This document shows positions 1,163 to 53,037 of a stretch of DNA of 64,000 nucleotides, one piece after another. The DNA is from Luteitalea pratensis (GTDB lineage: Bacteria; Acidobacteriota; Vicinamibacteria; Vicinamibacterales; Vicinamibacteraceae), in assembly GCF_001618865.1 (NCBI RefSeq), contig NZ_CP015136.1, positions 6,049,001-6,113,000 of the forward strand, written 5' to 3'. How positions within the stretch are numbered: position 1 is the stretch's first letter; each line of letters starts with the position of its first letter. The position numbers and the translations under genes were made by a program. The notes under the pieces are model-generated. The model had not been told where the DNA came from. It saw nothing but the letters and a program-made list of their open reading frames with translations, and ran no database searches.

Positions 1163-2772
1163 ATGGTCCTCACACCTGGGACCCATCTCGGAGCGTATGA
1201 AATTCTGTCGCCGCTCGGCGGCGGCGGTATGGGAGAGGTCTATCGCGGGAGAGACACTCGACTAGGCCGAGACGTCGCGATCAAGGTCGTCTCCGAACGT
1301 CGGACCAATGACTCGAACGCGCTCGCCCGATTCCAGCGAGAGGCTCGGACCGTCGCCGCTCTTTCCCATCCGAACATCGTTGCGCTTCACGATATCGGAT
1401 CGGAGAACGGCGTGGCTTTTATCGTCATGGAGCTTCTCGAGGGAGAGTCGCTGAACCAGTGCATCGCTCCGAGTGGCCTCTCCTGCAGGCGAGCTCTCGA
1501 AATTGGCGCTCAATCGCCGATGCGCTTGCCTCCGCCCACGGCAGGGGGGTCGTGCATCGTGACCTGAAGCCAGCCAACATCTTCGTCACGCGTGAAGGGC
1601 ATATCAAGGTTCTCGACTTCGGTCTGGCAAAGCACGATCCCTTTCGAACTGACGTGCCAGCCGCCGGCTCCACTCGTCCCGGAGTAACCGAACCGGGAAT
1701 GGTCCTTGGTACGGTCGCGTACATGTCGCCAGAGCAGGCGCAGGGTGAACCGTCTGATCAGCGTTCCGACATCTTCTCGCTCGGGTGTGTGCTCTACGAG
1801 ATGTTGTCAGGGCACGTTGCGTTTCCGGGAGCGACGGCTCCTGAAACGCTGGCCGCCATTCTCCGAGACGACCCACCGGCTCTGGCGGGGGCCGGCGAGA
1901 GGTTTCCAGCGAGCCTCGACGCGGTCGTCCGGCGCTGTCTCGAGAAGAAGCCTGGCCAGCGATTCCAATCGGCTCGCGATCTGGCCTTCTCCCTCCGCGA
2001 GATGCTCGGTGCTTCGGAGTCGAGCGCCAACGCCAATCATTTCGGCGCAGGTCGACACTTCAGCCGTCGCAGCGTCGCGCCCGCGCCGGCGTGTCTCGTC
2101 CTGGCAACGGACCGACGATTCGGTCCGTTCACCTTCCACGCCGACCGCCGTCAGCTCCTGCGCGACGGCGCGAACGTGCACCTTACGCCGAAAGCGTTCG
2201 ACCTCCTGGCCTTGCTGATCGAACGGGCGCCGGCCGTCGTGCCCAAGCCGGAGATTCACGTGTGCCTCTGGCCAGACAGGTTTGTGTCGGACGCTACGCT
2301 CGTGGGCCTGGTGAAGGAACTGCGTCGCGCGCTGCACGACGATCACCAGGGCGCGATCGTGCGGACCGCGCGTCGCGTCGGCTACGCGTTCGCAGACCCG
2401 TCGCAGGCAGGCACGCCATCAAAAGCGGCGACCCGTGCCTCCTGTTGGCTGGAGGCCGGGCCGCGGCGCATCCCACTGCAGGAGGGGATCACGACCATCG
2501 GCCGCGACCCCGCGTCGACTATCTGGCTCGATGTGGCCGGTGTCTCGCGGCGGCACGTGCAGATCGTGGTCGAGCACGGCGTGGCGTCACTCGAGGATCT
2601 TGGCAGCAAGAACGGGACGCTGGTCTGCGACCGCCCGGTCCGAGGGCGAGTCAGCCTCTACGATGGGGACCACATTCAGGTCGCGACCGAGCGCCTCGTC
2701 TTTCACGCGGCCGACAGAGGGGTGCCGACCGTGACGCAGCCGGTGCGGCCGTCGGGGCGCGACCACGAATAG
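1163..2772 (+). CDS. Ser/Thr protein kinase fused to winged helix and FHA domain, interrupted by a one-base frameshift
   Basis: Two overlapping frames make one protein. The first (from ATG 1163) carries the Gly-rich loop ([14 protein letters not shown]) and Lys41 of VAIK. The second carries [11 protein letters not shown] and SPEQ of the same Hanks-type kinase domain. The break is at 1511-1514, where adding one A to CAATCGCC restores the family sequence [15 protein letters not shown]. The corrected product is 536 residues: kinase (about 10-275), OmpR-type winged helix (about 310-410) and FHA (about 425-520, with GRDP, VSRRH and SKNGT). A kinase, DNA-binding domain and phosphothreonine reader in one chain suggests a self-contained phospho-controlled regulator. 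The break is either a sequencing slip in an A run or a recent inactivation; the remaining frame is well conserved, which favours an error or a young mutation. Confidence 0.75.
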
Positions 2773-2794
2773 GACGGATCACGGCTCGACAGTC

Positions 2795-5437
2795 TCAGGG
2801 GAAGTTCTCGATCATCATGAGATCTGACCTCGCTTCAAGACGACCGTATAGCAAATGCTTACCATCGGGCGAGACGCTGAGGCCCATGACCACCTCTGCT
2901 TCCACGTCGGCCACTGAGCGCTGCCGCTTTGTCACCGCGTCCCAGTACCGGAGATGGCGGCGCGGTGAGGCACCGGCATCCTCGCCTCCGCACGCAGTGT
3001 AGAAAATGCCCCGCGGGCCGACGGCGTAGCCGTACTGTTGGACACACGGAAGCACGACGTGTTCCTCGCCGCCCTCGACGCTTCGACCGACAAGAGGCGC
3101 ATCGCCCACGGCGCGAAGGTAGTACACCGTCCGGCCGTCCCAACTCTCGAATGGGAAGACGCCGCCATCGCGCGACACTTGCTCCTGCGTGCCGCCGGCC
3201 GACGGCACACGCCAGACCTCGTCGCGGCCCGTTCGTTTCGAGGTGAAGTACACGAAGCGGCCGTCGCGCGAAAAACTCGGCAGGACCTCGTCGCCGGAAT
3301 GGTTCGTGAGCTGGCGTAACCCTGACCCCGAGGCGTCGATGAGCCAGATGTCGACATGTCCGTTCGGATCTCGCGAGTCGAACACGATCGATCGGCCATC
3401 CGGGGACCAGCCGGGCCAGCCTTGGGAAAGACCCGGACCTCGCGTTAACCGAACGAGGTTTGATCCGTCGGCATCGGCCAGCCAGATCTCCCGTTTAGTC
3501 TCTCCGGCTCCTGCGGAGACGAGCGCGATTCGACGGCCATCTGGTGAGTATTGCGGTTGAATATCGTTGACGTTGGACCGGACGATCGGTTCAGGAGGCC
3601 GACCCTCCTCAAGATGGTAGAGGTCAGCATCGCCAACCCGCTGCATGAAGGCGAGCCGCGGGCGGCCCAGTGCGGTCGACGGCCACCACGCGTTCGCCAT
3701 CAATCTCAGTGGCTCGGGAGGGGTGGTCCCATTCGCCCGGATGCGCGACAGGTCGCCGGCGCCGTAGACAATGGAGCGACCATCGCGCGTCCATGCGACG
3801 CCGATCCAACCCCTGCGCGTGCTCGGTAAGGCACGTGTGGGTCCGCGAGGACGATACCCGGTGTCAAGGGCGACGACTCGGACTTCGCAGGCCGGCGTGA
3901 CCTCCGCGCCTTCGCACGATGCGTACGCGAGGTCGTGCCCCTCCGGCGAGAAGGCAGGGGACACATCGAAGGCCGGCGCCGTGGGAAATGTGATCGCGCG
4001 CGCCTCACCGCTCGCGATCGACAGGAGGTAGATGCCCCCTGGCGGCCCGCTCGGTGAGCGTCCCTTCGATACGGCCAGCCAGCGGCCATCCGGTGACCAG
4101 GACAACTGGAGCCTCGCCGGGAAGGTTGACACCTGCCGGTCGGGGCCGCCCACGGGCGAGATCAGGTGAACGGTGCCGACGGCAAGGTGCGTGAGACCTC
4201 TCGTCGTACCGGAGTTGTAGCGCAAGAAGGCAATCTGGGTGCCGTCCCGCGACCAAGACGGGTATCCTTCGGCCGCGGGATCGGTGGTGAGTCGGCGAGA
4301 CTCGACCTCGCCGACGACCTTTAATCGGATATCCCAATTGATCCCATCGTCGCCGGCGGACGCGTACGCGACCTGGGTACCATCGGGCGAGAAGCTGCCA
4401 CCTTCTGTCGAGCGCTCCGACGTCAGATGAACCAGGGTAGGCTCGGGAAACGCAGCTGGGCGCAAGGCCCATAGCGTGACTGTTGCGGCGATGCCGACGA
4501 CTGCGAGGACGATCGCTCCCAACACCAAGTGCCGACGGCGCGCGCGCGGGGCGTTACTGGTCCCTTTCGCCTGTGTCTCGTCTCTCAGTTCCTCGAGCTC
4601 CACCTTCAAATCCGATGCGTGCTGGAAACGCCGAGCCGGGTCCTTCTTCAGGCACCGCAGGATGATCCGCTCGAGGTCATCCGGCAGTGCCGGCGTGAGT
4701 TGGCGTGGCGCTGCAGGCTCGTCGTGCACGATGGCGGCAGCCGTCGCCGACACAGATTGGCGGCGGAACGCCCGATGGCCGGTCGCCATCTCGTACAGCA
4801 CGGTGCCGAAGCTGAAGACGTCGCTGCGCGCATCGACCGTGCCCCCCGACAGCTGCTCGGGCGACATGTATGGCGGTGTGCCGGCAGTGGCACCAACCGG
4901 TTGCAGCGGTACTGTGACCGTGCCGGTCGCTTCGGCGTCGACGTTATGGCCCACGAGCTTCGCGACGCCGAAGTCCAAGACCTTCACGACGCCCTTGGAC
5001 GAAACGATGACGTTGGCTGGCTTGAGATCGCAGTGCACGACCCCATGTTCATGGGCCGCCGCAAGCGCGTCGGCCATGGGAATGGCGACGCGCAGCAGCT
5101 CGCGTACCGGCATCCCGTTCTTCGGGATCAGCGCATCGAGCGTCCGGCCCGGCACGTACTCCATGACGATGAAGTCGAGCCCGTCGACCGACTCGATTTC
5201 GTGGATGGTGACGATGTGCGGGTGGTTGAGCGCGGAGGCGGCCTTGGCTTCCTGTACGAACGCCCATCGTCGAGCGGTGTCGGCCACGCGATCGGCCGGA
5301 AGGACCTTGATGGCCACTTCTCGATCGAGGCGAGAGTCGCGGGCGCGGTAGACCTCGCCCATCCCGCCCGCGCCCAGCGGCGTCAGGATCTCATACGGGC
5401 CTAGTCGATGCCCTGATGTCAGCGACACCGGGTCCAC
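2795..5437 (-). CDS. Membrane Ser/Thr protein kinase with C-terminal PD40/TolB beta-propeller
   Basis: The 880-residue protein starts at GTG 5437. It has a PknB-type kinase domain (about 15-290) with the loop [14 protein letters not shown], Lys44, DFG at 155-157 and SPEQ. One membrane helix follows (about 305-325), then a long extracytoplasmic propeller of PD40/WD40-like repeats with recurring SPDG and SRDG turns. This layout is common in Acidobacteriota: a cytoplasmic kinase with an external, possibly ligand-sensing propeller. The catalytic loop reads HCDLKPAN, not HRDLKPAN, so Cys136 replaces the Arg of RD kinases; activation-loop control may differ. It is convergent with the kinase-wHTH-FHA gene, 22 bases apart. 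Confidence 0.9.
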   Translation of the reverse strand: MDPVSLTSGHRLGPYEILTPLGAGGMGEVYRARDSRLDREVAIKVLPADRVADTARRWAFVQEAKAASALNHPHIVTIHEIESVDGLDFIVMEYVPGRTLDALIPKNGMPVRELLRVAIPMADALAAAHEHGVVHCDLKPANVIVSSKGVVKVLDFGVAKLVGHNVDAEATGTVTVPLQPVGATAGTPPYMSPEQLSGGTVDARSDVFSFGTVLYEMATGHRAFRRQSVSATAAAIVHDEPAAPRQLTPALPDDLERIILRCLKKDPARRFQHASDLKVELEELRDETQAKGTSNAPRARRRHLVLGAIVLAVVGIAATVTLWALRPAAFPEPTLVHLTSERSTEGGSFSPDGTQVAYASAGDDGINWDIRLKVVGEVESRRLTTDPAAEGYPSWSRDGTQIAFLRYNSGTTRGLTHLAVGTVHLISPVGGPDRQVSTFPARLQLSWSPDGRWLAVSKGRSPSGPPGGIYLLSIASGEARAITFPTAPAFDVSPAFSPEGHDLAYASCEGAEVTPACEVRVVALDTGYRPRGPTRALPSTRRGWIGVAWTRDGRSIVYGAGDLSRIRANGTTPPEPLRLMANAWWPSTALGRPRLAFMQRVGDADLYHLEEGRPPEPIVRSNVNDIQPQYSPDGRRIALVSAGAGETKREIWLADADGSNLVRLTRGPGLSQGWPGWSPDGRSIVFDSRDPNGHVDIWLIDASGSGLRQLTNHSGDEVLPSFSRDGRFVYFTSKRTGRDEVWRVPSAGGTQEQVSRDGGVFPFESWDGRTVYYLRAVGDAPLVGRSVEGGEEHVVLPCVQQYGYAVGPRGIFYTACGGEDAGASPRRHLRYWDAVTKRQRSVADVEAEVVMGLSVSPDGKHLLYGRLEARSDLMMIENFP

Positions 5438-5892: not shown

Positions 5893-6949
5893 GGCGTTGG
5901 TGCATGGCTCACACCGCGTCGCAGGTCCCTCAAGTCGCGGTCTCGTCACGACTGATCGTGTGCGACTCTGGCCTGCCAAGCGCGGTCATTTGGTTCAGGA
6001 TGCGGCACGCGACACTCGCCTCGACATTCCGGCCATTGCCACTACGGGCGCCAAGGCCGAAGGCGTTCTCGACGCGGGCCTGTCGGTGGTAGCCCGAGGC
6101 CTTCTGCCATGCGCGTCGCCCGAGCGTTTCCACGTCGCTGATCACGCGATCGCGAGCCCTCGAGCGCGGTCCGCGGCGCGACACTCGTGCCGTCCTAGTC
6201 GGCGGCACGACCACCTGCGCGTGTCGCCCGCTCGCGGCCTCATAGAAGGCGACCGTGTCGTAGGCCGTGTCCGCCGTGACACTGGCGACGTTGCCAACCG
6301 CCGCCCCGATCAGATCGATACCCACGGTCGCGTCGTCGACCGTCGCCGCAGTGAGCACATGCGCGACGATCACGCCGGTACGGTCGACACCCAAATGGAG
6401 CTTCTCCAGCCTCGTATGCCACGCCCGCCGTGTTTCGCCGCGGCCCACTCCCCTTCGCCGATAACTGACAGCCCTGTGCTGTCGACGATCAGATGCAGCG
6501 GTCCCTTCGCTGGGCGGTTGTGCGCCGTGACGTCGACCGACTGAGTCCGTCGCGAAAGCGTCGTGTGGTCCGGGGCAACGAGACCGGCGCGCATCATGGT
6601 CAGGATCGACCGGAGGAAGCCCTCCGTCTGGCGCAAGGGCGAGTGGAAGACGAGTCGGAGGGTCAGGGCGGTCTCGATCGCCAGATCCGAGAACCGCTGC
6701 TGCCCGCCAGGGCGACCGGACGGTGGCACGCCCCACGCGGCCCTGGGTCCGGCGGGAACCACAACGTCACGTCGCCCCGACTGACGAGGGCGCGCTCGTA
6801 CGCCCGCCAATTCCCCACCCGGTAGTGCGTCTTGTACGTGGGATGCACCCGCGACTTCATCGCACGATCATGCCGCCGCGGGCCCCGACATGCCAGCCGC
6901 TTCAACGGCCGACCCACTACATGACGATCCGCAGCCATGCACCAACGCC
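5893..6949 (-). mobile_element. IS5-family (IS903-like) element, copy B, with both terminal repeats
   Basis: The perfect 17-base inverted repeat GGCGTTGGTGCATGGCT lies at 5893-5909 and, inverted, at 6933-6949, giving 1057 bases. That is the size known for IS903-group elements, and the repeat resembles their GGC-TTG ends. No target duplication is seen (flanks GCGGCGCGA and GATCTCTGA). The transposase inside is broken, so the copy cannot move on its own. Confidence 0.8.
5930..6860 (-). pseudogene. IS5-family DDE transposase, frameshifted
   Basis: The frame starts at ATG 6860 (MKSRVHPTYKTHYRVGNWR) and needs at least two frame changes, near 6770 and near 6400, to follow the family sequence through GRPGGQQRFSDLAIETALTL, LIVDSTGLSVIGEGEW, KLHLGVDRTGVI and GYHRQARVENAF. 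About nine residues (FRYKSIIGD in copy A) are also missing after ENAF. The catalytic DDE core is scattered over three frames, so no active transposase is made. It shares its C-terminal region with copy A and with the chimeric element at 23186. Confidence 0.75.
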
Positions 6950-6958
6950 GATCTCTGA

Positions 6959-7262
6959 CGTCGGTTCACCCTGAGCGAAGCCGAGGCGGCGCAGTACCTG
7001 GGTTTGAGTCGGGCGTGGCTCAAGAAGGCGCGCACGGCGCGGTTCCGAGCAGCGATTGATGGGCCGCCGTTTGTGAAGGCTGGCGCCAGGCGGGTCGTCT
7101 ATCGCCGCCGAGATCTCGAAGACTGGGTGCAAGCGCACGTCAGCAGGCAACCTGAGACAACCGGGCTGCCGGAGGTGCGGCCTTCACCCTCGCACCCCTA
7201 ATGCACCCCCGAACCCGCGCAGGCTGTTCGGACGGGGTCGGGACGAGCGCATTAAAGTATTC
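6959..7262 (+). repeat. Copy 1 of a roughly 300-base repeat (excisionase-like HTH segment)
   Basis: This stretch is matched, with substitutions and small gaps, by 52136-52238 plus 52749-52945. Homology starts at ACGTC before the HTH frame and runs through CCTAATGCACCCCCGAACCC to GCATTAAA. The 3' tail can fold, since TAATGC and GCATTA are complementary about 50 bases apart. Copy 2 sits directly beside tRNA-Arg, so the segment is probably the end of an integrated element. Copy 1 has no tRNA neighbour. Confidence 0.6.
6965..7201 (+). pseudogene. Excisionase/AlpA-like helix-turn-helix fragment without a start codon
   Basis: The frame reads FTLSEAEAAQYLGLSRAWLKK, then [20 protein letters not shown], to a TAA at 7199-7201. 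This is the MerR-like/HTH_17 fold of excisionase-type DNA-binding proteins: a helix-turn-helix followed by a wing ending in the DLExWV motif. An in-frame TGA at 6956 precedes it and there is no ATG, only a TTG at 7004 inside the helix-turn-helix, so the 5' end seems lost beside the IS5 end at 6949. A second, interrupted copy lies at 52.1-52.9 kb. Confidence 0.55.
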
Positions 7263-7275
7263 AAAATTAAGGCAC

Positions 7276-9477
7276 TCAGGTCGTCGTCAGCACCCGTATC
7301 GGTCCGCGGCGCGCGAGTGCGTCGACCACGACTTGCTGGCCCGACCGGCGCAGGGCGATGTCGACAGCGGTGTCAGCCAGTGCGAGATTGCGGAGTACCA
7401 CTTCGCCCAGGAACGCCGGGAGGACCGGTTCCTCGAATGTGATGCGCAGCGCGTCGGCGTCGAAGCCGAGCCCGAGGCACGACTGCAGCATGAAGAGCGG
7501 CGCGGCTGCGGCCCACGCCTGCGGCGTGCACGCCACCGGATATGGCGTCGGACCATGTGTCCGCTGTCGCCGGAAGCCGCAGAACAGCTCCGGCAGGCGG
7601 CGCAGGTCGATGTAGATCGACACCCCGAAGAGTCCCTCGAAGATGCGCGCGGCGTGATGCTTGAAGCCGTAGCGCGCCAGCCCAGCGGCGATGAGCGCGT
7701 TGTCGTGCGGCCAGACCGACCCGTTGTGATAGCTCATGGGGTTATAACGCGCCGCAGACGCCGTCACCGTGCGTATGCCCCAGCCGCAGAACGAGCCGGG
7801 TGCCATGAGGGTGGCGGCCACCGATGCCGCCCGCTCCGGATACGCGATACCGGCAAACAGCGCGTGCCCCGCGTTCGACGTACGGACCAGGCACGGGCGC
7901 TTGTCGCCGTCAAGGGCGAGTGCATAGGTACCGAGCTCTGGAACGAAGAAGTGCTGGTCGAACGCCCGGCGCAGCGCGTCCGCACGCATCTGGAGACGGG
8001 CCGCGTCGTCGGCATGACCAAGTCGGCGGGCGATCGTGGCCCCTGCCGTCCATGCCCCGTACGTGTAAGCCTGGACTTCCGCGAGCGCGATCGGGCCGTG
8101 CGCGAGCGTGCCGTCGGCGTGGAATACCGAGTCGTGGCTGTCCTTCCAGCCCTGGTTGACGAGTCCTGCCGACGTCTGCCGGGCGTACTCGACGAAGCCG
8201 TCTTCGTCCCGATCGCCGTACCGCTCGATCCACGCGAGCGCCGCCTCGACGCTCGGCCAGAGCCGTCGCACCGTGCCCAGGTCTCCGGTCCGTGCCAGGT
8301 AGGCACCCGCCAGCATCACGAACAGCGGCGTGGCGTCGACGCTTCCGTAGTAGCGCCGGAACGGTACCTCCCCGAGCTCTGCCATCTCGCCGTGCCGGAC
8401 TTCGTGCAGGATCTTGCCCGGCTCGGCGTCGGCGGCCGGATCGACGATCGTCGCCTGGTGCACGGCCAGGTGGTTCAGCACGCCACGCGCGATCGCCGGA
8501 TCCATCCAGAGCATCTCCATGGCCGTGATCAGCGCGTCGCGACCGAACACCGTGCTGAACCACGGGATTCCCGCATACGGGAACGGACCCTCCGGCGTGT
8601 TGGTAATGAGCATGTTGAGATCGGAGACCGACCGTTGCACGGCCTCGTTGAAGATCTCGTTGGACGTCGTAATCGACGCCGCACGCGACAAGGACATCCG
8701 CTGGGCGCGGCGCGCCTCGCGCAGCGCGCCGAAAAAGGCCCGTCCCGGCGTCAGCCAGCTGTGCTCCGTGCCGCACGCCACCTCCAGATACAACGAATGT
8801 GCTTCCCTGGGCTTGAGCTCCAGCGTGAACAGCGCGCGCTCGGCGGTCAGACGATCTGGAGCCGGCGTGAAGCCCAACGTGGTGACCCTCTCGCGACCGT
8901 CCAGACCTCGATACGCCAGCACCACACGGTCACGGCCGACGTTGGGAGGAAGCTTCGTGCCGCGACGCGCGCGCTTCGCTCCACGGACTTCGAAGAGGTC
9001 GGCGAAGTCAGCGGCAAAGGCGAGCTCCAGGGTCACCTGCCGTTGCTGACCGTCGAAGTTGCGCAGCACGAGTCGCTCGTAGCACGTCGCATTCCAGAGG
9101 AACCGCGAGCGGCGGATGTGCAGGAGATCGTGTTCGAGCAGGAGCTGTCCGTCGGCGTCAAATACATCGGGGTTGGTGAGATCGCAGGACAGCGTGGCGT
9201 TGTCGTCGCGCACCGTCGACGACAGCAGGATGGGCCGCGCCCCGGCAATCAGGAGATGCACGTGCGAGAGGTAGCGCGTGTCTCGGTGAAACACGCCTTC
9301 CGGGCTGCCGACTCCCGAGAGCACGTCGCCGCTGCGCTCGAACACCGCGAACGTGTCGCCGTGCTTCAGCGTCCGCAGCCGCTGCTCCTGCAGGGAGTCA
9401 GTGGCTGGGATGAAGAACGGCTCGACCGGGTCGTCGCCTGGCGGGGACACGAGGGTCTCGCCATTCCCTGTGGGCAT
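7276..9477 (-). CDS. Amylo-alpha-1,6-glucosidase / glycogen debranching-type enzyme
   Basis: The 733-residue protein starts at ATG 9477 behind AAGGGGG. It has an N-terminal beta-rich domain of bacterial glycogen debranching enzymes (FAVFERSGDVL, GVFHRDTRYLSHV; about 40-260) and a C-terminal (alpha/alpha)6 barrel with GIPWFSTVFGRDALITAMEM, DSVFHADGTLAHGPIALAEV and NGSVWPHDNALIA. Acidic residues in FGRD, QGWKDS and the barrel match the family's active-site region. It probably hydrolyses alpha-1,6 branches or a related alpha-glucan linkage in the cytoplasm; no signal peptide is seen. It lies 14 bases after the GT4 gene and forms an operon with it, a pairing often linked to glycogen or stress-sugar metabolism. 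Confidence 0.88.
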   Translation of the reverse strand: MPTGNGETLVSPPGDDPVEPFFIPATDSLQEQRLRTLKHGDTFAVFERSGDVLSGVGSPEGVFHRDTRYLSHVHLLIAGARPILLSSTVRDDNATLSCDLTNPDVFDADGQLLLEHDLLHIRRSRFLWNATCYERLVLRNFDGQQRQVTLELAFAADFADLFEVRGAKRARRGTKLPPNVGRDRVVLAYRGLDGRERVTTLGFTPAPDRLTAERALFTLELKPREAHSLYLEVACGTEHSWLTPGRAFFGALREARRAQRMSLSRAASITTSNEIFNEAVQRSVSDLNMLITNTPEGPFPYAGIPWFSTVFGRDALITAMEMLWMDPAIARGVLNHLAVHQATIVDPAADAEPGKILHEVRHGEMAELGEVPFRRYYGSVDATPLFVMLAGAYLARTGDLGTVRRLWPSVEAALAWIERYGDRDEDGFVEYARQTSAGLVNQGWKDSHDSVFHADGTLAHGPIALAEVQAYTYGAWTAGATIARRLGHADDAARLQMRADALRRAFDQHFFVPELGTYALALDGDKRPCLVRTSNAGHALFAGIAYPERAASVAATLMAPGSFCGWGIRTVTASAARYNPMSYHNGSVWPHDNALIAAGLARYGFKHHAARIFEGLFGVSIYIDLRRLPELFCGFRRQRTHGPTPYPVACTPQAWAAAAPLFMLQSCLGLGFDADALRITFEEPVLPAFLGEVVLRNLALADTAVDIALRRSGQQVVVDALARRGPIRVLTTT

Positions 9478-9491
9478 CGGTCCCCCTTGGG

Positions 9492-10589
9492 TTACTCGGC
9501 CACCTGGATGCCGTGCGTCGTGGCGGGCGCGCACGACACCATGCCGGTGGCACCGGTACAGCGTCCCGACAGGACGCGGTAGATCCGGACATAATCACGC
9601 GCCATGCGGGCCGTGGTGAAACGGGCCTCGAAGACGGCGCGCACCGCCGCACGGTTCAGATGATGGAGCTGGCCGATGGCCTCGACAGCTTCGGCGACGT
9701 CGCGCACCACGAAGCCAGTCACGCCGTGCTCGATGACTTCTGGCACCGACCCGTGCGGGAAGGCCACGACCGGTGTGCCGCAGGCCATGGCCTCGATCAA
9801 AACGAGGCCGAAGGGCTCGGGCCAGTCGATTGGGAAGAGCAGCGCACGGGCTTGGCCGAGGAACGCGGCTTTCTGGAGTTCGTCGATCTCGCCGATGAAC
9901 TCGACGTCGGGATGCGCAGCGATCATCGGTCCGATTACTGCGTCCCAATACGCACGGTCGACGTTGTCGATTTTTGCGGCGATCTTGAGTGGTAGGCCGG
10001 CGGCCGTCGCGATCTCGATGGCAAGGTCCGGTCGCTTCTCGGCCGAGATGCGACCGAGGAACGCGAGATATCCGCCGCTCGGCTGAGCGCTGAAGGGCAA
10101 CAGGTCCCGTGGCAGGCCGTGATGGACGGTACCGGCCCAGTTTACCGGCGGCATCGGCTGGCGTTGCGCATCGGAGACGGAGACGAGTGGAAAATCGGGA
10201 AAGGCTCTGTAGAACGGCTTCAGGTCAGTCAAGTCGAGCCTGCCGTGCAGTGTCGTCACACCGTGGCCGGCAAAGCCGTGCATCAGCGGGTAGTGGAGCA
10301 AGTCTATGTGAAAGTGCAGCACGTCAAAGGTGTGCGCACGGCGCCGCACCTCATCGAGCAACATCACGTGATAGGGGAGCGGATCGGCCGCGACAGGGTT
10401 GAGCCGCAGCGCGGTTTTGCAGCAGGGCACGAGCCTGGCGAGGGTGGTCGAATCGCCGCTGGCGAACAGTGTGACTTCATGACCCTGCCGTACGAGCTCG
10501 TCGGTCAGATATGCGACGATTCGCTCGGTTCCACCATACAGCCGCGGCGGGCAACTTTCCGTAAGCGGAGCGATCTGAGCAATCTTCAT
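9492..10589 (-). CDS. Glycosyltransferase family 4
   Basis: The 365-residue protein starts at ATG 10589 with GGAGG eight bases before it; upstream in-frame codons have no ribosome site. Two Rossmann domains of a GT-B fold are visible: MKIAQIAPLTES and YGGTERIVAYLTDELVRQGH at the N-terminus, FLGRISAEKRPDLAIEIA at the hinge, and the nucleotide-sugar binding segment EPFGLVLIEAMACGTPVVAF with the retaining E-x7-E motif. It should transfer a sugar from a nucleotide donor with retention; donor and acceptor are not readable. It is the first gene of a two-gene operon with the debranching-type enzyme. Confidence 0.9.
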   Translation of the reverse strand: MKIAQIAPLTESCPPRLYGGTERIVAYLTDELVRQGHEVTLFASGDSTTLARLVPCCKTALRLNPVAADPLPYHVMLLDEVRRRAHTFDVLHFHIDLLHYPLMHGFAGHGVTTLHGRLDLTDLKPFYRAFPDFPLVSVSDAQRQPMPPVNWAGTVHHGLPRDLLPFSAQPSGGYLAFLGRISAEKRPDLAIEIATAAGLPLKIAAKIDNVDRAYWDAVIGPMIAAHPDVEFIGEIDELQKAAFLGQARALLFPIDWPEPFGLVLIEAMACGTPVVAFPHGSVPEVIEHGVTGFVVRDVAEAVEAIGQLHHLNRAAVRAVFEARFTTARMARDYVRIYRVLSGRCTGATGMVSCAPATTHGIQVAE

Positions 10590-12078: not shown

Positions 12079-12278
12079 CGATCGCCGCCGCTGCCTTGGG
12101 GACCGGGCGAGCTATCGTCTCGAACCTTGAGCCGTTCATGCGCGGCCTTCGTGCGAACGGCCAACACGGTGCGGTTCAGCACGGCGGCATTCGCGCTCAG
12201 CGGTTTCTCGTCGAACACGAGCCTACGCAGCAGTGACAGTTCATCCGCGGTCCATCTTCGGCTCTTGCGTTCCGACAT
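12075..12278 (-). CDS. Small Myb/SANT-like DNA-binding protein
   Basis: The 67-residue product reads RRWTADELSLLRRLVF, then LNRTVLAVRTKAAHERLKV. This is the spacing of a single Myb/SANT-type helix-turn-helix: a W-T-x-x-E-L first helix and an LxRTxxAVRxKA recognition helix. Such small bacterial proteins are presumed DNA-binding regulators. It is the first gene of a pair overlapping by four bases with the 93-residue protein. The tail is acidic and Gly/Pro-rich, probably disordered. Confidence 0.55.
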   Translation of the reverse strand: MSERKSRRWTADELSLLRRLVFDEKPLSANAAVLNRTVLAVRTKAAHERLKVRDDSSPGPQGSGGDR

Positions 12279-12472
12279 TGGTCTTCTGCGCTCGCGGCGT
12301 GCGGGGAGCCGCAGCTGAGCTGTCAGAAGTGTGTGGGAAGTATTCGAACGACGCCACTACCAACGGTTATGGGTCGCCGCGTTGGTTGTGCGCCAGGGGC
12401 TTGAGGCGAGGAGACGCCGGTAGTGATGGCGGTGCGGAAGGCAGCCTGCGAGAAGGGGATCACAGCAAGGCC

Positions 12473-24510: not shown

Positions 24511-24587
<77 letters not shown>

Positions 24588-39021: not shown

Positions 39022-39709
39022 CGCTGCGGCGACACACGTCACCGCCGCGCCGCGCGCGTTCCGCGGATCGTTGCCCCCGTTCGACGTGCGTGCGTTCGTC
39101 GATTCGGTTGGCATCTCACGCCACATCGTGCGCTACGCGCGGTCCTCTGTCGTCTTCGCGCAGGGCAGTCCGGCCAACAACGTGTTCTACATCCAGCAGG
39201 GCGGTGTACAGCTGTCGGTCTTGTCGCGAAGAGGCAGGGACGCGATCGTCGCCATGCTCGCGCCGGGTGACTTCTTCGGTGAGGGCTGCCTGGCCGGTCA
39301 GCCCCTCCGAATGGGCACCGCGACGGCGCTGGTGCCGACGACCGTACTGCGGATTCAGAAGAGGGCGATGATGCGGAGCCTGCACGAGCACTCCGCGCTC
39401 TCGGATCGATTCATCGCGCACATGCTCGTGCGCAACATCCGGATCGAGGAGGACCTCGTTGATCAGCTGTTCACCTCGACTGAGAAACGGCTGGCGCGGA
39501 CGCTGCTCCTGCTCGCACGCTACGGCGACGAGCGTACCCCGCGACGCGTGCTGCCGAAGATCTCGCAGGAAGCGCTTGCCGAGATGGTCGGGACCACGCG
39601 ATCGCGCGTCAACGTCTTCATCAACAAGTTCCGAAAGCTGGGACTCATCACGTACAACGGCACGCTGACGGTTGACAGCGCACTCTTGTGCGTCGTCCTG
39701 CACGACTGA
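39005..39709 (+). CDS. Crp/Fnr-family transcription regulator
   Basis: Start ATG 39005 lies inside the end of the GH130 gene. The 234-residue product has a cyclic-nucleotide-binding-type beta roll (about 30-140: VVFAQGSPANNVFYIQQGGV, LAPGDFFGEGCLAGQPLRMG) and a Crp-type helix-turn-helix (about 180-230: ISQEALAEMVGTTRSRVNVF, INKFRKLGLI). Effector-site residues of cAMP-binding (R-S pair of the PBC) are not evident and no Fnr cysteines are present. It is likely to control its own operon. A close paralogue is encoded on the opposite strand at 40727-41395. Confidence 0.9.
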   Translation: MAQRRSAAATHVTAAPRAFRGSLPPFDVRAFVDSVGISRHIVRYARSSVVFAQGSPANNVFYIQQGGVQLSVLSRRGRDAIVAMLAPGDFFGEGCLAGQPLRMGTATALVPTTVLRIQKRAMMRSLHEHSALSDRFIAHMLVRNIRIEEDLVDQLFTSTEKRLARTLLLLARYGDERTPRRVLPKISQEALAEMVGTTRSRVNVFINKFRKLGLITYNGTLTVDSALLCVVLHD

Positions 39710-40726: not shown

Positions 40727-41395
40727 TCAGTCGTGCAGGACGATGCTCAGGAGCGCATTGTTCACCTTGAGCCCGCCGTTGTACTCGATCAACCCGAGCT
40801 TGCGGAACTTGTTCATGAAGAAGTTCACCCGTGAGCGCGTCGTGCCCACCATTTCCGCGAGCGTCTCCTGTGACAGTTTCGGGAGGACGCGCTGTGTCGC
40901 GTCCTCCTTCCCGTACCGAGCCAGGAGCAGCAATGTGCGGGCGAGCCGCTTCTCGCTGGAATTGAAGAGCTGATCGACCAGGTCCTCTTCGATACGGATG
41001 TTGCGCGTCAGCATGTGCGACAGGAATCGGTCGGAGAATGCGGGATGGTCGTGCAGCATCCGGACCATGTCGCGCTTCAGGATGCGCAAGAGCGCCGTCC
41101 GCATGACGGCCGTCGCCATACCCATGCGCAACGGCTGCCCGGCAAGGCAGCCCTCGCCCAGGAAATCACCCGGGCCGAGCATGGCCACGACGGCCTCCTT
41201 GCCGGCCGTGGAGAGGACCGAGAGCTTGATCCCGCCCTCCTTGACGAAAAACACACTGTTCGCCTGTGCCCCCTGGGCGAAGACGACGGCGCCACTCGCA
41301 AATCGCACGGTGCGCGGAGACACCCTCGCCGATGCGAGGAACGCCTGAACGTCGAAGGCCGGCGGCGGACGGGCCGGGAGTGACTTGGGCGGCAT
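40727..41395 (-). CDS. Crp/Fnr-family transcription regulator, paralogue of 39005-39709
   Basis: The 222-residue protein has the same domains as its neighbour, with shared runs such as LGEGCLAGQPLRMG, RNIRIEEDLVDQLF, EKRLARTLLLLARYG and EMVGTTRSRVN. The ligand roll (about 20-130) and helix-turn-helix (about 170-220) are complete. The gene faces the other Crp gene, with the micro-operon between them, and is divergent from the protein at 41498. The two regulators probably came from one duplication; whether they bind the same site is open. Confidence 0.9.
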   Translation of the reverse strand: MPPKSLPARPPPAFDVQAFLASARVSPRTVRFASGAVVFAQGAQANSVFFVKEGGIKLSVLSTAGKEAVVAMLGPGDFLGEGCLAGQPLRMGMATAVMRTALLRILKRDMVRMLHDHPAFSDRFLSHMLTRNIRIEEDLVDQLFNSSEKRLARTLLLLARYGKEDATQRVLPKLSQETLAEMVGTTRSRVNFFMNKFRKLGLIEYNGGLKVNNALLSIVLHD

Positions 41396-51470: not shown

Positions 51471-51697
51471 CTGGCCCCCTGGTAGGTCGCTGACCGGCAC
51501 CTACCGTTGACTCATCGCCGGCCCCAGTGGGTTCCGTCGGCCAGACTGTGGGTCAGTGTAGTGTGATCTCCGGCCGCCCCCTTGTGGGCATCGGCATCAG
51601 ACGTGCTGCCTGCGAGTCGGTGGGTACCACATGACTCGGGGCGGATTCGGCATTCGCTACACCTGCACCGAAATCGATTAATCGAAGAGGACTGGCA

Positions 51698-52045
51698 ATG
51701 CCTGACCAATCGACGCCCGACACGCAAGATGCAGGTCAGCCCTTGAGCGCCGCTGGAAAGGGTCATACCGGCGAGCCTGAAGCCAGGGAAGAGCGCACTG
51801 CGGACCCAAGGAATCCCGCGTCCAAGCCCCAGGACACGCAACGGGGCCAGCAGAAGAACATGGAGTCGGAAAGACAGCCTGTTCAGCTGCCCGACCATGC
51901 TGGCGACCTGAGTGCCAGCACCGACGGCACAGCGGCGCGTGAGCGCGAGGCAAAGCTCGCCATGGAACGGTTCGGGCTTCTGAAAAGTAAGCTGCGCACT
52001 GGTGGAGGCTTCACGCGGGCAGTCCCGCCGGGAGACCACAAGTGA
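51698..52045 (+). CDS. Small disordered hydrophilic protein
   Basis: ATG 51698 follows GAGGA. The 115-residue product is rich in Gln, Asp, Pro, Glu and Lys (MPDQSTPDTQDAGQPLSAAG and a C-terminal AREREAKLAMERFGLLKSKL). Only the last third looks helical. No signal peptide or known domain; function unknown. Confidence 0.5.
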   Translation: MPDQSTPDTQDAGQPLSAAGKGHTGEPEAREERTADPRNPASKPQDTQRGQQKNMESERQPVQLPDHAGDLSASTDGTAAREREAKLAMERFGLLKSKLRTGGGFTRAVPPGDHK

Positions 52046-52135
52046 CCGGCCTCTTGACGCCCCCAAACTGACCCAGTACTGTCGAGCGGGGCATCGTCCG
52101 TCCACATGCTGGAGCGCCCTAGATCAGATCCTCAC

Positions 52136-52238
52136 GTCACTTCACCCTCAGCGAAGCAGCGGCGCAGTACCTGGGCATGAGCCGGGCGTGGGTCAAGAAG
52201 GCGCGCACGGCGAGGTTCAGATTGGCGATTGATCCTCC
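52136..52238 (+). repeat. Copy 2, first half, of the excisionase-like repeat
   Basis: It matches the start of copy 1 at 6959: FTLSEAAAQYLGMSRAWVKK, then ARTARFR. A TAG lies in frame before it and no start codon is present. At about 52238 the match breaks off; the second half resumes at 52749, so about 510 bases of other DNA lie within the repeat. Confidence 0.6.
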
Positions 52239-52315
52239 ACCAGCATGGAACAATGCGAATGTCGTGACCAGAAGGCGTTCGTCGCGTTGAGCGCCTGACA
52301 CGAGAGTGCAGTGAC

Positions 52316-52516
52316 ATGCCTGACAACAATGACAAGAAACCATGCACGGCGATCGGCTGCCGCGGAACGATGCGTTATTACGAAGACGTCCTTCCTGAAC
52401 GATATGGACGCAATGAGCCCACCGCTACGCACCACGACGGCGAACTCGTGTTGCAGCCGCCCCGCCATCCTGGCTGGGTGTGCGATCAGGATCCTCGACA
52501 TGTACAGCCGGACTGA
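52316..52516 (+). CDS. Small Cys-containing hypothetical protein
   Basis: ATG 52316 gives 66 residues: MPDNNDKKPCTAIGCRGTMR, YYEDVLPERYGRNEPTATHH, PGWVCDQDPRHVQPD. Cys at CTAIGC and in the WVCDQDPRH end could bind a metal; this pattern, a C-x4-C at the start and a W-V-C-D-x-D-P-x-H at the end, is that of a small putative zinc-ribbon family. It lies inside the DNA that interrupts the excisionase-like repeat. Confidence 0.5.
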   Translation: MPDNNDKKPCTAIGCRGTMRYYEDVLPERYGRNEPTATHHDGELVLQPPRHPGWVCDQDPRHVQPD

Positions 52517-52625
52517 TGCGTTGTCAGCGTTCTGTGGACGGCTGCGGGCGACACGCGGTCGGCATGTGAATCATCCTCCGCTACTCGCCATCCCGGTCGC
52601 CGCCTTGAGGCAATAACCTTAGGGG

Positions 52626-52757
52626 TTCGACTCCAACGAGCTCCTCCGCATCTTCGAGGGCTTCAGGATCCTCACGTACGAGGAAGTGGAGGGCGCCTAC
52701 GACTGGGCTCCCGGCAAGCCCGTCCGAATGGTGTGTCTGATGCGCCACAGTTCGTGA
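52626..52757 (+). pseudogene. C-terminal end of a class I SAM methyltransferase
   Basis: The frame FDSNELLRIFEGFRILTYEE, then VEGAYDWAPGKPVRMVCL, is a typical ending of TehB-type SAM methyltransferases (N-E-L-L-x-x-F-x-G-F-x-I-L-x-Y-E, followed by x-D-W-x-P-G-x-x-V-R-x-V-x-L). It runs into the repeat at about 52749 and stops at 52757. The 5' part of the gene is absent, so a deletion joined it to the repeat. Confidence 0.5.
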
Positions 52758-52945
52758 AGGCTGGGCGCCAGGCGGGTCGTGTATCGCCGCCGTGATCTTG
52801 AGGACTGGTGCACGCCCACGTCAGCACGCAACACAAAACAACGAGGCAACCAGAGGTTCGGTCTCCGTCCCCGCACCCCTAATGCACCCCCGAACCCGCC
52901 CAGGCCGTTCATGCCGGGGCGGGCCAGGAGCATTAAATTGTTTAG
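52749..52945 (+). repeat. Copy 2, second half, of the excisionase-like repeat
   Basis: The sequence runs TTCGTGAAGGCTGGGCGCCA to AGCATTAAATTG and matches copy 1 at 7068-7262. One added G near 52762 shifts the DLEDW frame. The segment ends 15 bases before tRNA-Arg(TCG), as expected for DNA integrated at a tRNA gene. Confidence 0.6.
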
Positions 52946-52960
52946 ATTGAGCGACTTACA

Positions 52961-53037
52961 TGGTGCGCCCGGAGGGATTCGAACCCCCGACCTGCGGCTT
53001 CGAAGGCCGACGCTCTATCCAACTGAGCTACAGGCGC
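52961..53037 (-). tRNA. tRNA-Arg(TCG)
   Basis: A complete cloverleaf on the minus strand: acceptor GCGCCTG/CGGGCGC, D-arm GCTC...GAGC, anticodon loop CTTCGAA (anticodon TCG), T-arm GGGGG TTCGAAT CCCTC, discriminator A, encoded CCA (52961-52963). It reads CGA codons. The first pair of the anticodon stem (T-C) is mismatched. Confidence 0.95.

Follow-up and report, generated by a model that had tools for sequence, protein, structure and literature searches.

Probable int-distal ends of a tRNA-targeting integrative-element family, with an excisionase-like gene and a proposed arm-type tandem repeat, in Luteitalea pratensis

A segment that is repeated within a 64,000-nucleotide stretch of the Luteitalea pratensis chromosome (hereafter the window, genome positions 6049001-6113000 of a closed, single-contig genome of 7,480,314 bases) very probably represents the integrase-distal (int-distal) end of integrative elements of one family, which use a tyrosine integrase to insert into tRNA genes at their 3′ ends. 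In this segment, a small HTH_17 gene is followed by the tandem repeat GCACCCC-TAA-TGCACCCC, and blastn finds it at five places in the 7.48-Mb genome. The best account of these five copies is that they are the decayed, integrase-less ends of separate tRNA islands, i.e., of an ordinary and known kind of element. The surviving ends most likely stem from separate insertions: one at tRNA-Arg(TCG), one at tRNA-Lys(TTT), one at a duplicate of tRNA-Arg(CCG), and two whose core has been lost.

An earlier note on this DNA had described two copies, and alignment confirms both as real, far beyond what chance would produce. Copy 1 (window 6950-7271, plus strand) aligns by blastn with three further copies, at genome positions 4694925, 4840250 and 6017533, which came from the whole-genome search that the note had proposed (DNA identity 83-87%, E <= 2e-83); it is made up of an HTH gene remnant, the arm sites and an AT-rich stretch before the lost core. 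Copy 2 aligns as two blocks (window 52127-52233 and 52738-52937) with about 508 bp between them. Its first part (52073..52233, plus strand) holds the upstream region and the start of the HTH gene and is 81% identical to the copies at 6017471 and 4840187, while its second part (52742..52937, plus strand) holds the frameshifted remainder of the gene and the tail. All five copies have the same orientation, on the plus strand. The HTH genes are clearly damaged in four of them: that of copy 1 has lost its 5′ end at the edge of an insertion sequence at about 6950, that of copy 2 is interrupted and frameshifted, that of the 6017533 copy has its upstream start in a different frame, and that of the 4694925 copy is open, though its 5′ part has diverged and its tail is shifted and runs on. 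In the 4840250 copy, the least damaged one, the gene is open from a possible GTG start and stops earlier than in copy 1.

The edge that truncates the HTH gene of copy 1 belongs to an IS transposase remnant (5930..6949, minus strand; Pfam DDE_Tnp_1). With the best 40 of 313 candidates scored, window 6500-6950 has at least 39 other match rows in the genome, and at least 23 of these end at window positions 6947-6954; most of the IS-type matches group on the minus strand at 3.10-3.42 Mb. On the other side, copy 1 resembles the other copies as far as 7271, and the stop codon of a glycogen-debranching-type gene (7276-9534, minus strand) follows five bases later.

The extra DNA of copy 2 is an insertion and not a swapped core. 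Delimited against the uninterrupted copies, it occupies 52234..52741 (plus strand) and is flanked on both sides by TGAT (52230-52233 and 52738-52741), one of the two being counted in its 508 bp. Its first 507 bases matched only their own place among the loci compared, and an earlier DNA search found 93 bp of it to be 82% like a stretch in one congener. The earlier note had reported about 510 extra bases with a small Cys protein gene and a methyltransferase tail. The bases and a Cys-rich ORF (52316-52516, without a Pfam match) are there, and the label of the 44-aa methyltransferase tail, which has no Pfam match either, is unproven. The further proposal that the internal part of one element had been swapped is not supported, as the 508 bp interrupt the HTH gene of copy 2 alone and the copies appear to come from different elements (synonymous divergence 0.23-0.52, copy 2 excluded). 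Upstream of copy 2, a small hydrophilic ORF (51698..52045, plus strand; no Pfam match) is possible cargo and lies in a stretch shared with the neighbourhood of the 6017533 copy, window ~51652-51907 being 75% identical over 257 bp to genome 6016652-6016905. Elsewhere in the window, positions 39233-39709 and 40727-41203 form an inverted repeat of 477 nt, 74% complementary, with its arms 1017 nt apart.

The HTH gene survives in copy 1 as an ORF remnant of 80 codons (6959..7201, plus strand, 5′ end cut off) whose TAA stop (7199-7201) lies inside the arm repeat, as does the stop of the 6017533 copy. Its description as excisionase-like in the earlier note is borne out by sequence and by fold, the function being putative. 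The copy 1 protein matches Pfam HTH_17 (32.5 bits) and PHROG_66 (E 3e-5), a family named excisionase and transcriptional regulator; no NCBIfam model matches. RdfS is the sole match at E <= 1 in a sequence search of the PDB, a weak one (E 0.034), and is also the top Foldseek match in the PDB (E 2.5e-3, 38% identity over 56 columns) of an AlphaFold model that was built on a thin alignment of three sequences and is of moderate confidence (mean pLDDT 74.9); no PDB match of this model reaches E 0.001, and Pukovnik Xis stands at rank 4. The IntS/RdfS pair of ICEMlSym R7A combines a tyrosine integrase with a small winged-helix recombination directionality factor (RDF) that acts on the attachment site (PMC11963761; 8dgl). 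The window protein is linked to this system by RdfS, which heads the PDB matches in sequence as well as in fold; the sequence match is weak (E 0.034), and the window copies come without an integrase. We infer that the HTH protein is an RDF and that its activity would be of this kind.

Less probable, yet deserving some weight, is the reading that the gene product is no excisionase and instead controls the transcription of cargo genes or of a satellite responding to a helper (AlpA in its regulatory sense). The name of PHROG_66 includes transcriptional regulator, regulators of the MerR type turn up further down the PDB fold list, and names of PrtN-type activators lead the viral Foldseek list, in which phage excisionase, Excise and AlpA names recur. 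Against this reading, the best PDB matches in both sequence and fold are excisionases (RdfS, with Pukovnik Xis at rank 4), and in a PICMI satellite AlpA drives excision while satellite gene expression is unaltered (PMC10803314).

Over 60 codons of the four ungapped copies (copy 2 excluded), dN/dS is 0.10-0.15 in six of six pairs, including 0.10-0.13 for copy 1 against the three others, at a synonymous divergence (dS) of 0.23-0.52. Such ratios indicate past purifying selection on the HTH gene, and the four copies, having apparently diverged under selection on the protein, are most likely parts of separate elements.

The repeat GCACCCC-TAA-TGCACCCC, our proposed integrase arm-type site, lies at 7192..7209 in copy 1 (plus strand) and at 52873..52890 in copy 2 (plus strand), where 88 bp separate its start from the tRNA 3′ end. 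The portion of the tail conserved among the five copies is GCACCCCTAATGCACC(CC), from which the 6017533 copy differs at one base (GTACCCC) and the 4840250 copy at one base at the far end. Searched over 16 bases with up to two mismatches, GCACCCCTAATGCACC has seven matches in the genome, all forward and none reverse, while the reversed pattern has three. These seven sites are the five HTH copies and the two ends of a 4.7-kb element at tRNA-Val(CAC), whose 16-base repeat is matched exactly by four of the five copies and with one mismatch by the fifth. Across the order, the exact 18-mer GCACCCCTAATGCACCCC occurs in 10 of 162 genomes, this one included, and its reversed control in none of the 162. 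The nine other genomes hold ten exact copies, every one of which has a related integrase or a tRNA, whole or fragmentary, as its neighbour. In three cases a relative of the tRNA-Val element's integrase lies just downstream; in five the repeat is followed by the 3′ end of a tRNA-Asp or tRNA-Ala, either a gene or a fragment (ARAGORN missed two of the fragments, which were identified by eye); and in two (L063 and L065) it is flanked by a complete tRNA-Arg(TCT) and by the 5′ half of a second one, a half that was likewise identified by eye. In all, the 17 places (seven in this genome and ten exact ones elsewhere) divide into four upstream of a related integrase, eleven at a tRNA gene or fragment and two at neither. 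In the other genomes of the order, the surroundings of the arm sites (within ~1.5 kb) yielded no HTH gene.

The distance from the start of the arm repeat to the tRNA 3′ end is nearly constant, at 84-89 bp in 10 of the 11 ends measured and 77 bp in one; this tally includes one end with the variant TGCACCCCTATTGCACCCC and omits copy 1 (no recognisable core), the 4694925 copy (core lost), L085 (contig end), and L063 and L065 (tRNA 5′ half on the far side). Because of this fixed spacing to tRNA 3′ ends, and because the integrases scanned carry arm-binding domains, the repeat can be interpreted as an arm-type site to which the integrase would bind. As the same motif stands beside genes or fragments of tRNA-Arg (TCG, CCG and TCT), tRNA-Lys, tRNA-Val, tRNA-Asp and tRNA-Ala, arm recognition appears to be the same across different tRNA cores. 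The motif is a simple DNA marker for where a family of tRNA islands and satellites ends in one bacterial order, and exact matches have little background. With its help, the borders of elements can be located with a precision of a few bases, also in decayed islands that lack an integrase.

A looser motif, TGCACCCCNNNTGCACCCC with any 3-bp spacer, has five matches in the 395 other genomes of a 396-genome sample of the phylum. Two of them fit (one with an integrase, one with a tRNA-Val) and three fit poorly: two lack an integrase or tRNA context, and one is near a tRNA-Leu in the other orientation. At L079 (genome G305), TGCACCCC-AAT-TGCACCCC lies downstream of a tRNA-Leu, in the orientation opposite to all others, and in a viral contig (L086) the motif lies near a weakly similar integrase, in a different orientation. 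The layout at L063 (G025) and L065 (G093) looks as if an element cuts the anticodon loop and supplies a replacement tRNA. In the open-licence literature, no related mention of the TGCACCCC motif with an integrase was found, the matches looking unrelated, nor was any text joining arm-type sites, AlpA, excisionase and tRNA; the arm-repeat element is not treated in the passages of an acidobacterial prophage paper (PMC5900883).

Two other features of the tail were considered and dropped. The complementary TAATGC/GCATTA pair noted earlier is present in copies 1 and 2 and missing from the other three: TAATGC, which falls within the GCACCCCTAATGCACC repeat, is kept in all copies, but GCATTA occurs in copies 1 and 2 only, so a functional palindrome was rejected. 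A conserved hairpin between arm and core was likewise abandoned, as the window copies have no clear hairpin (z +0.49 for copy 1, with the core set by hand at 85 bp, and -1.58 for copy 2); folds of the 46 nt after the arm at 12 ends include some strong hairpins and give z from -4.65 to +0.89, with a mean of -1.45.

Three of the five copies border the 3′ end of a tRNA or a fragment of one (Arg-TCG, Lys-TTT and an Arg-CCG fragment). Copy 2 is indeed beside tRNA-Arg(TCG), which ARAGORN and Rfam place at 52961..53037 (minus strand), and this gene is the proposed integration target, its 3′ end being the border between element and chromosome. No att duplicate of it is evident elsewhere among eight matches to its 3′-end pattern with up to three mismatches. 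The 4840250 copy is followed by 22 nt that repeat the 3′ end of tRNA-Lys(TTT), the whole tRNA being 72 bp away, and the 6017533 copy precedes a 46-nt copy (95.7%) of the tRNA-Arg(CCG) 3′ end. The note's idea of remnants of a tRNA-targeting element gains from these borders, from the tail at both ends of the tRNA-Val element and from an apparently complete element elsewhere. It had set copies at sites lacking tRNAs or integrases against this idea, and such copies exist in part: no tRNA lies within ~1.5 kb of copy 1, which is not tRNA-adjacent, or of the 4694925 copy, and Phage_integrase has no match near any of the five. Among recombinase types, the search covered Phage_integrase only, with no match at 5.39-6.47 Mb or within 100 kb of the 4694925 and 4840250 copies. 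No second arm (an attL/attR partner) was found for any of the five copies genome-wide at up to two mismatches, nor was a whole element with the HTH gene at its int-distal end.

Copy 1 itself lies inside a different structure. The tRNA-Arg(CCG) gene of the window (24511..24587, minus strand) is the right border of two tandem islands with homologous ends (genome 6017853-6035206 and 6035207-6073510), 46-nt copies of its 3′ end standing at 6017853 and 6035207, and copy 1 is within the second. Phage_integrase has no match inside the two islands (window 1-24510 and genome 6017853-6049000). Because the stretches displayed show no GCACCCC repeat of their own at the island ends, these islands probably belong to another integrase type.

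Integrase-bearing relatives show how such an end may be completed. The 4.7-kb tRNA-Val(CAC) element of the same genome has the arm repeat at both ends, in the order 49-nt tRNA 3′ copy, arm, integrase, cargo, arm and whole tRNA, the 49-nt duplicate being an exact copy of the tRNA 3′ end. Its genes are, in order, a 411-aa integrase at genome 3957792-3959027 (L011:5793-7028), a DDE_3 transposase, a Terminase_4-like ORF and a TIR ORF; five proteins of the region were scanned (integrases, transposase, TIR ORF and Terminase_4-like ORF). The TIR-domain ORF (L011:10003-10410), possible defence cargo, lies at the int-distal end, where its start abuts the arm on the opposite strand. All three integrases scanned (L011, L036 and L087) have Phage_integrase and Arm-DNA-bind_3 domains, together with motifs fitting the R, K, HxxR, H and Y residues, which we take to have the roles that these residues have in tyrosine recombinases.

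The apparently complete element is L087, an IMG/VR metagenomic contig of 13,499 bp. At one end it has a tRNA-Arg(CCG) 3′ fragment and an arm at 2050, and at the other an arm at 12169 and the whole tRNA at 12258-12334; its integrase is at 2127-3329 and its HTH gene at ~4012-4233, with a product 41% identical to the window protein over 63 residues (tblastn) and 50% in a short alignment. Beyond the HTH gene come a D5_N/DUF5906 primase, HNH, TerL, capsid, portal and prohead protease genes. The nine proteins scanned include no tail protein, and L087 therefore looks like a capsid-forming satellite. Capsid-forming PICIs (cf-PICIs) are defined by int, alpA, primase, capsid and packaging genes without tail genes. 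As far as the passages on these satellites and on PICMI go, L087 resembles them in having, between its two arm sites, int, an HTH gene in the alpA position and a DUF5906/D5 primase, followed by HNH, TerL, capsid, portal and protease; passages of PMC10803314 give PF12728 for AlpA and PF19263 for the primase in the PICMI search model. Unlike the satellites covered there, the family has this gene set in its relative L087 only, and the window HTH gene is at the other end; the few window proteins scanned include no capsid or primase product. Genome G006 likewise groups an HTH gene (product 62% identical over 60 residues) with an integrase gene and with a BrnT toxin gene that has an antitoxin-like ORF as neighbour, and there arm repeats flank tRNA-Asp-like fragments on both sides. 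In both L087 and G006, the HTH gene is nearer the integrase, unlike the int-distal position of the window copies.

Altogether, these data lead to a model in which the element end would consist of a winged-helix excisionase (RDF) gene, a tandem arm-type site, about 45 variable bp, an AT-rich stretch and a tRNA-derived core. In a working element, the N-terminal arm-binding domain of the integrase would sit on the arm repeats at both ends and the integrase would cut at the core within the tRNA, while the HTH protein would bend the end DNA and so favour excision. At the five ends described here, the integrase and the opposite ends have probably been lost; copy 1 was cut by the IS, with loss of its tRNA part, and copy 2 was interrupted by the 508-bp insertion. 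A comparable arrangement is found in KplE1, where TorI is a winged helix-turn-helix (wHTH) protein and torI is at the attR end. Passages of PMC2951348 describe this prophage (IntS/TorI), in the E. coli argW tRNA gene, as a 10.2-kb defective element that combines a duplicated core, arm-type sites and the RDF and integrase genes in one recombination module. KplE1, as far as these passages go, retains both ends, integrase and RDF, whereas the window copies retain one end.

It is improbable, on present evidence, that the islands were integrase-less and non-autonomous from the outset, with HTH gene, arm and core forming a minimal cassette that is moved in trans by an integrase encoded elsewhere (e.g., that of the tRNA-Val element) along with differing cargo and into several tRNA genes. 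By this doubtful account, the shared arm code GCACCCC-TAA-TGCACCCC would mean that one integrase type serves many islands at different tRNA genes, and the integrase-less RDF-plus-arm cassettes would be portable, trans-mobilised ends that gather cargo such as an arsenic operon in this bacterial order. The lack of a Phage_integrase match near any copy would agree with it, as would the 16-base identity of the arm repeat with that of the resident integrase element in four of the five copies (one base off in the fifth). The 4840250 copy, moreover, combines an open HTH ORF with neighbouring genes (L010:1037-7042; genome 4834036-4840041) that look like an arsenic operon: a methyltransferase that looks ArsM-like, an SBF-family transporter that looks ACR3-like, an ArsA ATPase and a metallophosphoesterase, with an ArsD match just below the cut-off. 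Yet none of the five copies has an opposite-end arm, so none should be excisable as present, and the HTH genes are damaged in four. Very improbable is that the copies are paralogues from ordinary duplication or gene conversion, unrelated to integration and with the tRNA beside copy 2 coincidental: all are on the plus strand of one genome and two of five lack a tRNA, but the tail marks either end of an element with an integrase and neighbours integrases or tRNAs in nine other genomes, at a fixed distance from arm to tRNA, and the four ungapped copies (dS 0.23-0.52, dN/dS ~0.1) diverged as working genes and not as recent duplicates.

Comparison with congeners, in which the best 40 candidates were scored per genome, bears on the borders of the islands. 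None of the four congeners has a match to the HTH protein. At tRNA-Arg(TCG), congener matches begin within 7 bases of the 3′ base and stop short of copy 2, among the best 40 candidates per genome; in the closed congener G003, the tRNA-Arg(TCG) has the opposite orientation relative to the shared right flank, and the locus has therefore been rearranged. At tRNA-Lys, the similarity shared with G003 sets in 4 bases into the 22-nt core copy, that with G037 and G047 sets in at the tRNA itself, and the matching contig of G016 ends near the place. Congener sequences from the left of tRNA-Arg(CCG) and tRNA-Lys match the L. pratensis genome at scattered places. The distance between a tRNA-Glu match and tRNA-Lys is 162 kb in this genome, 15.6 kb in G003 and 5.9 kb in G037, and the interval, which holds two of the five copies, is apparently an accretion hot spot. 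Near the 4840250 copy, L010:7585-7631 is a dispersed repeat found at several places in the genus, with a row of copies at G003 5877282-5877646.
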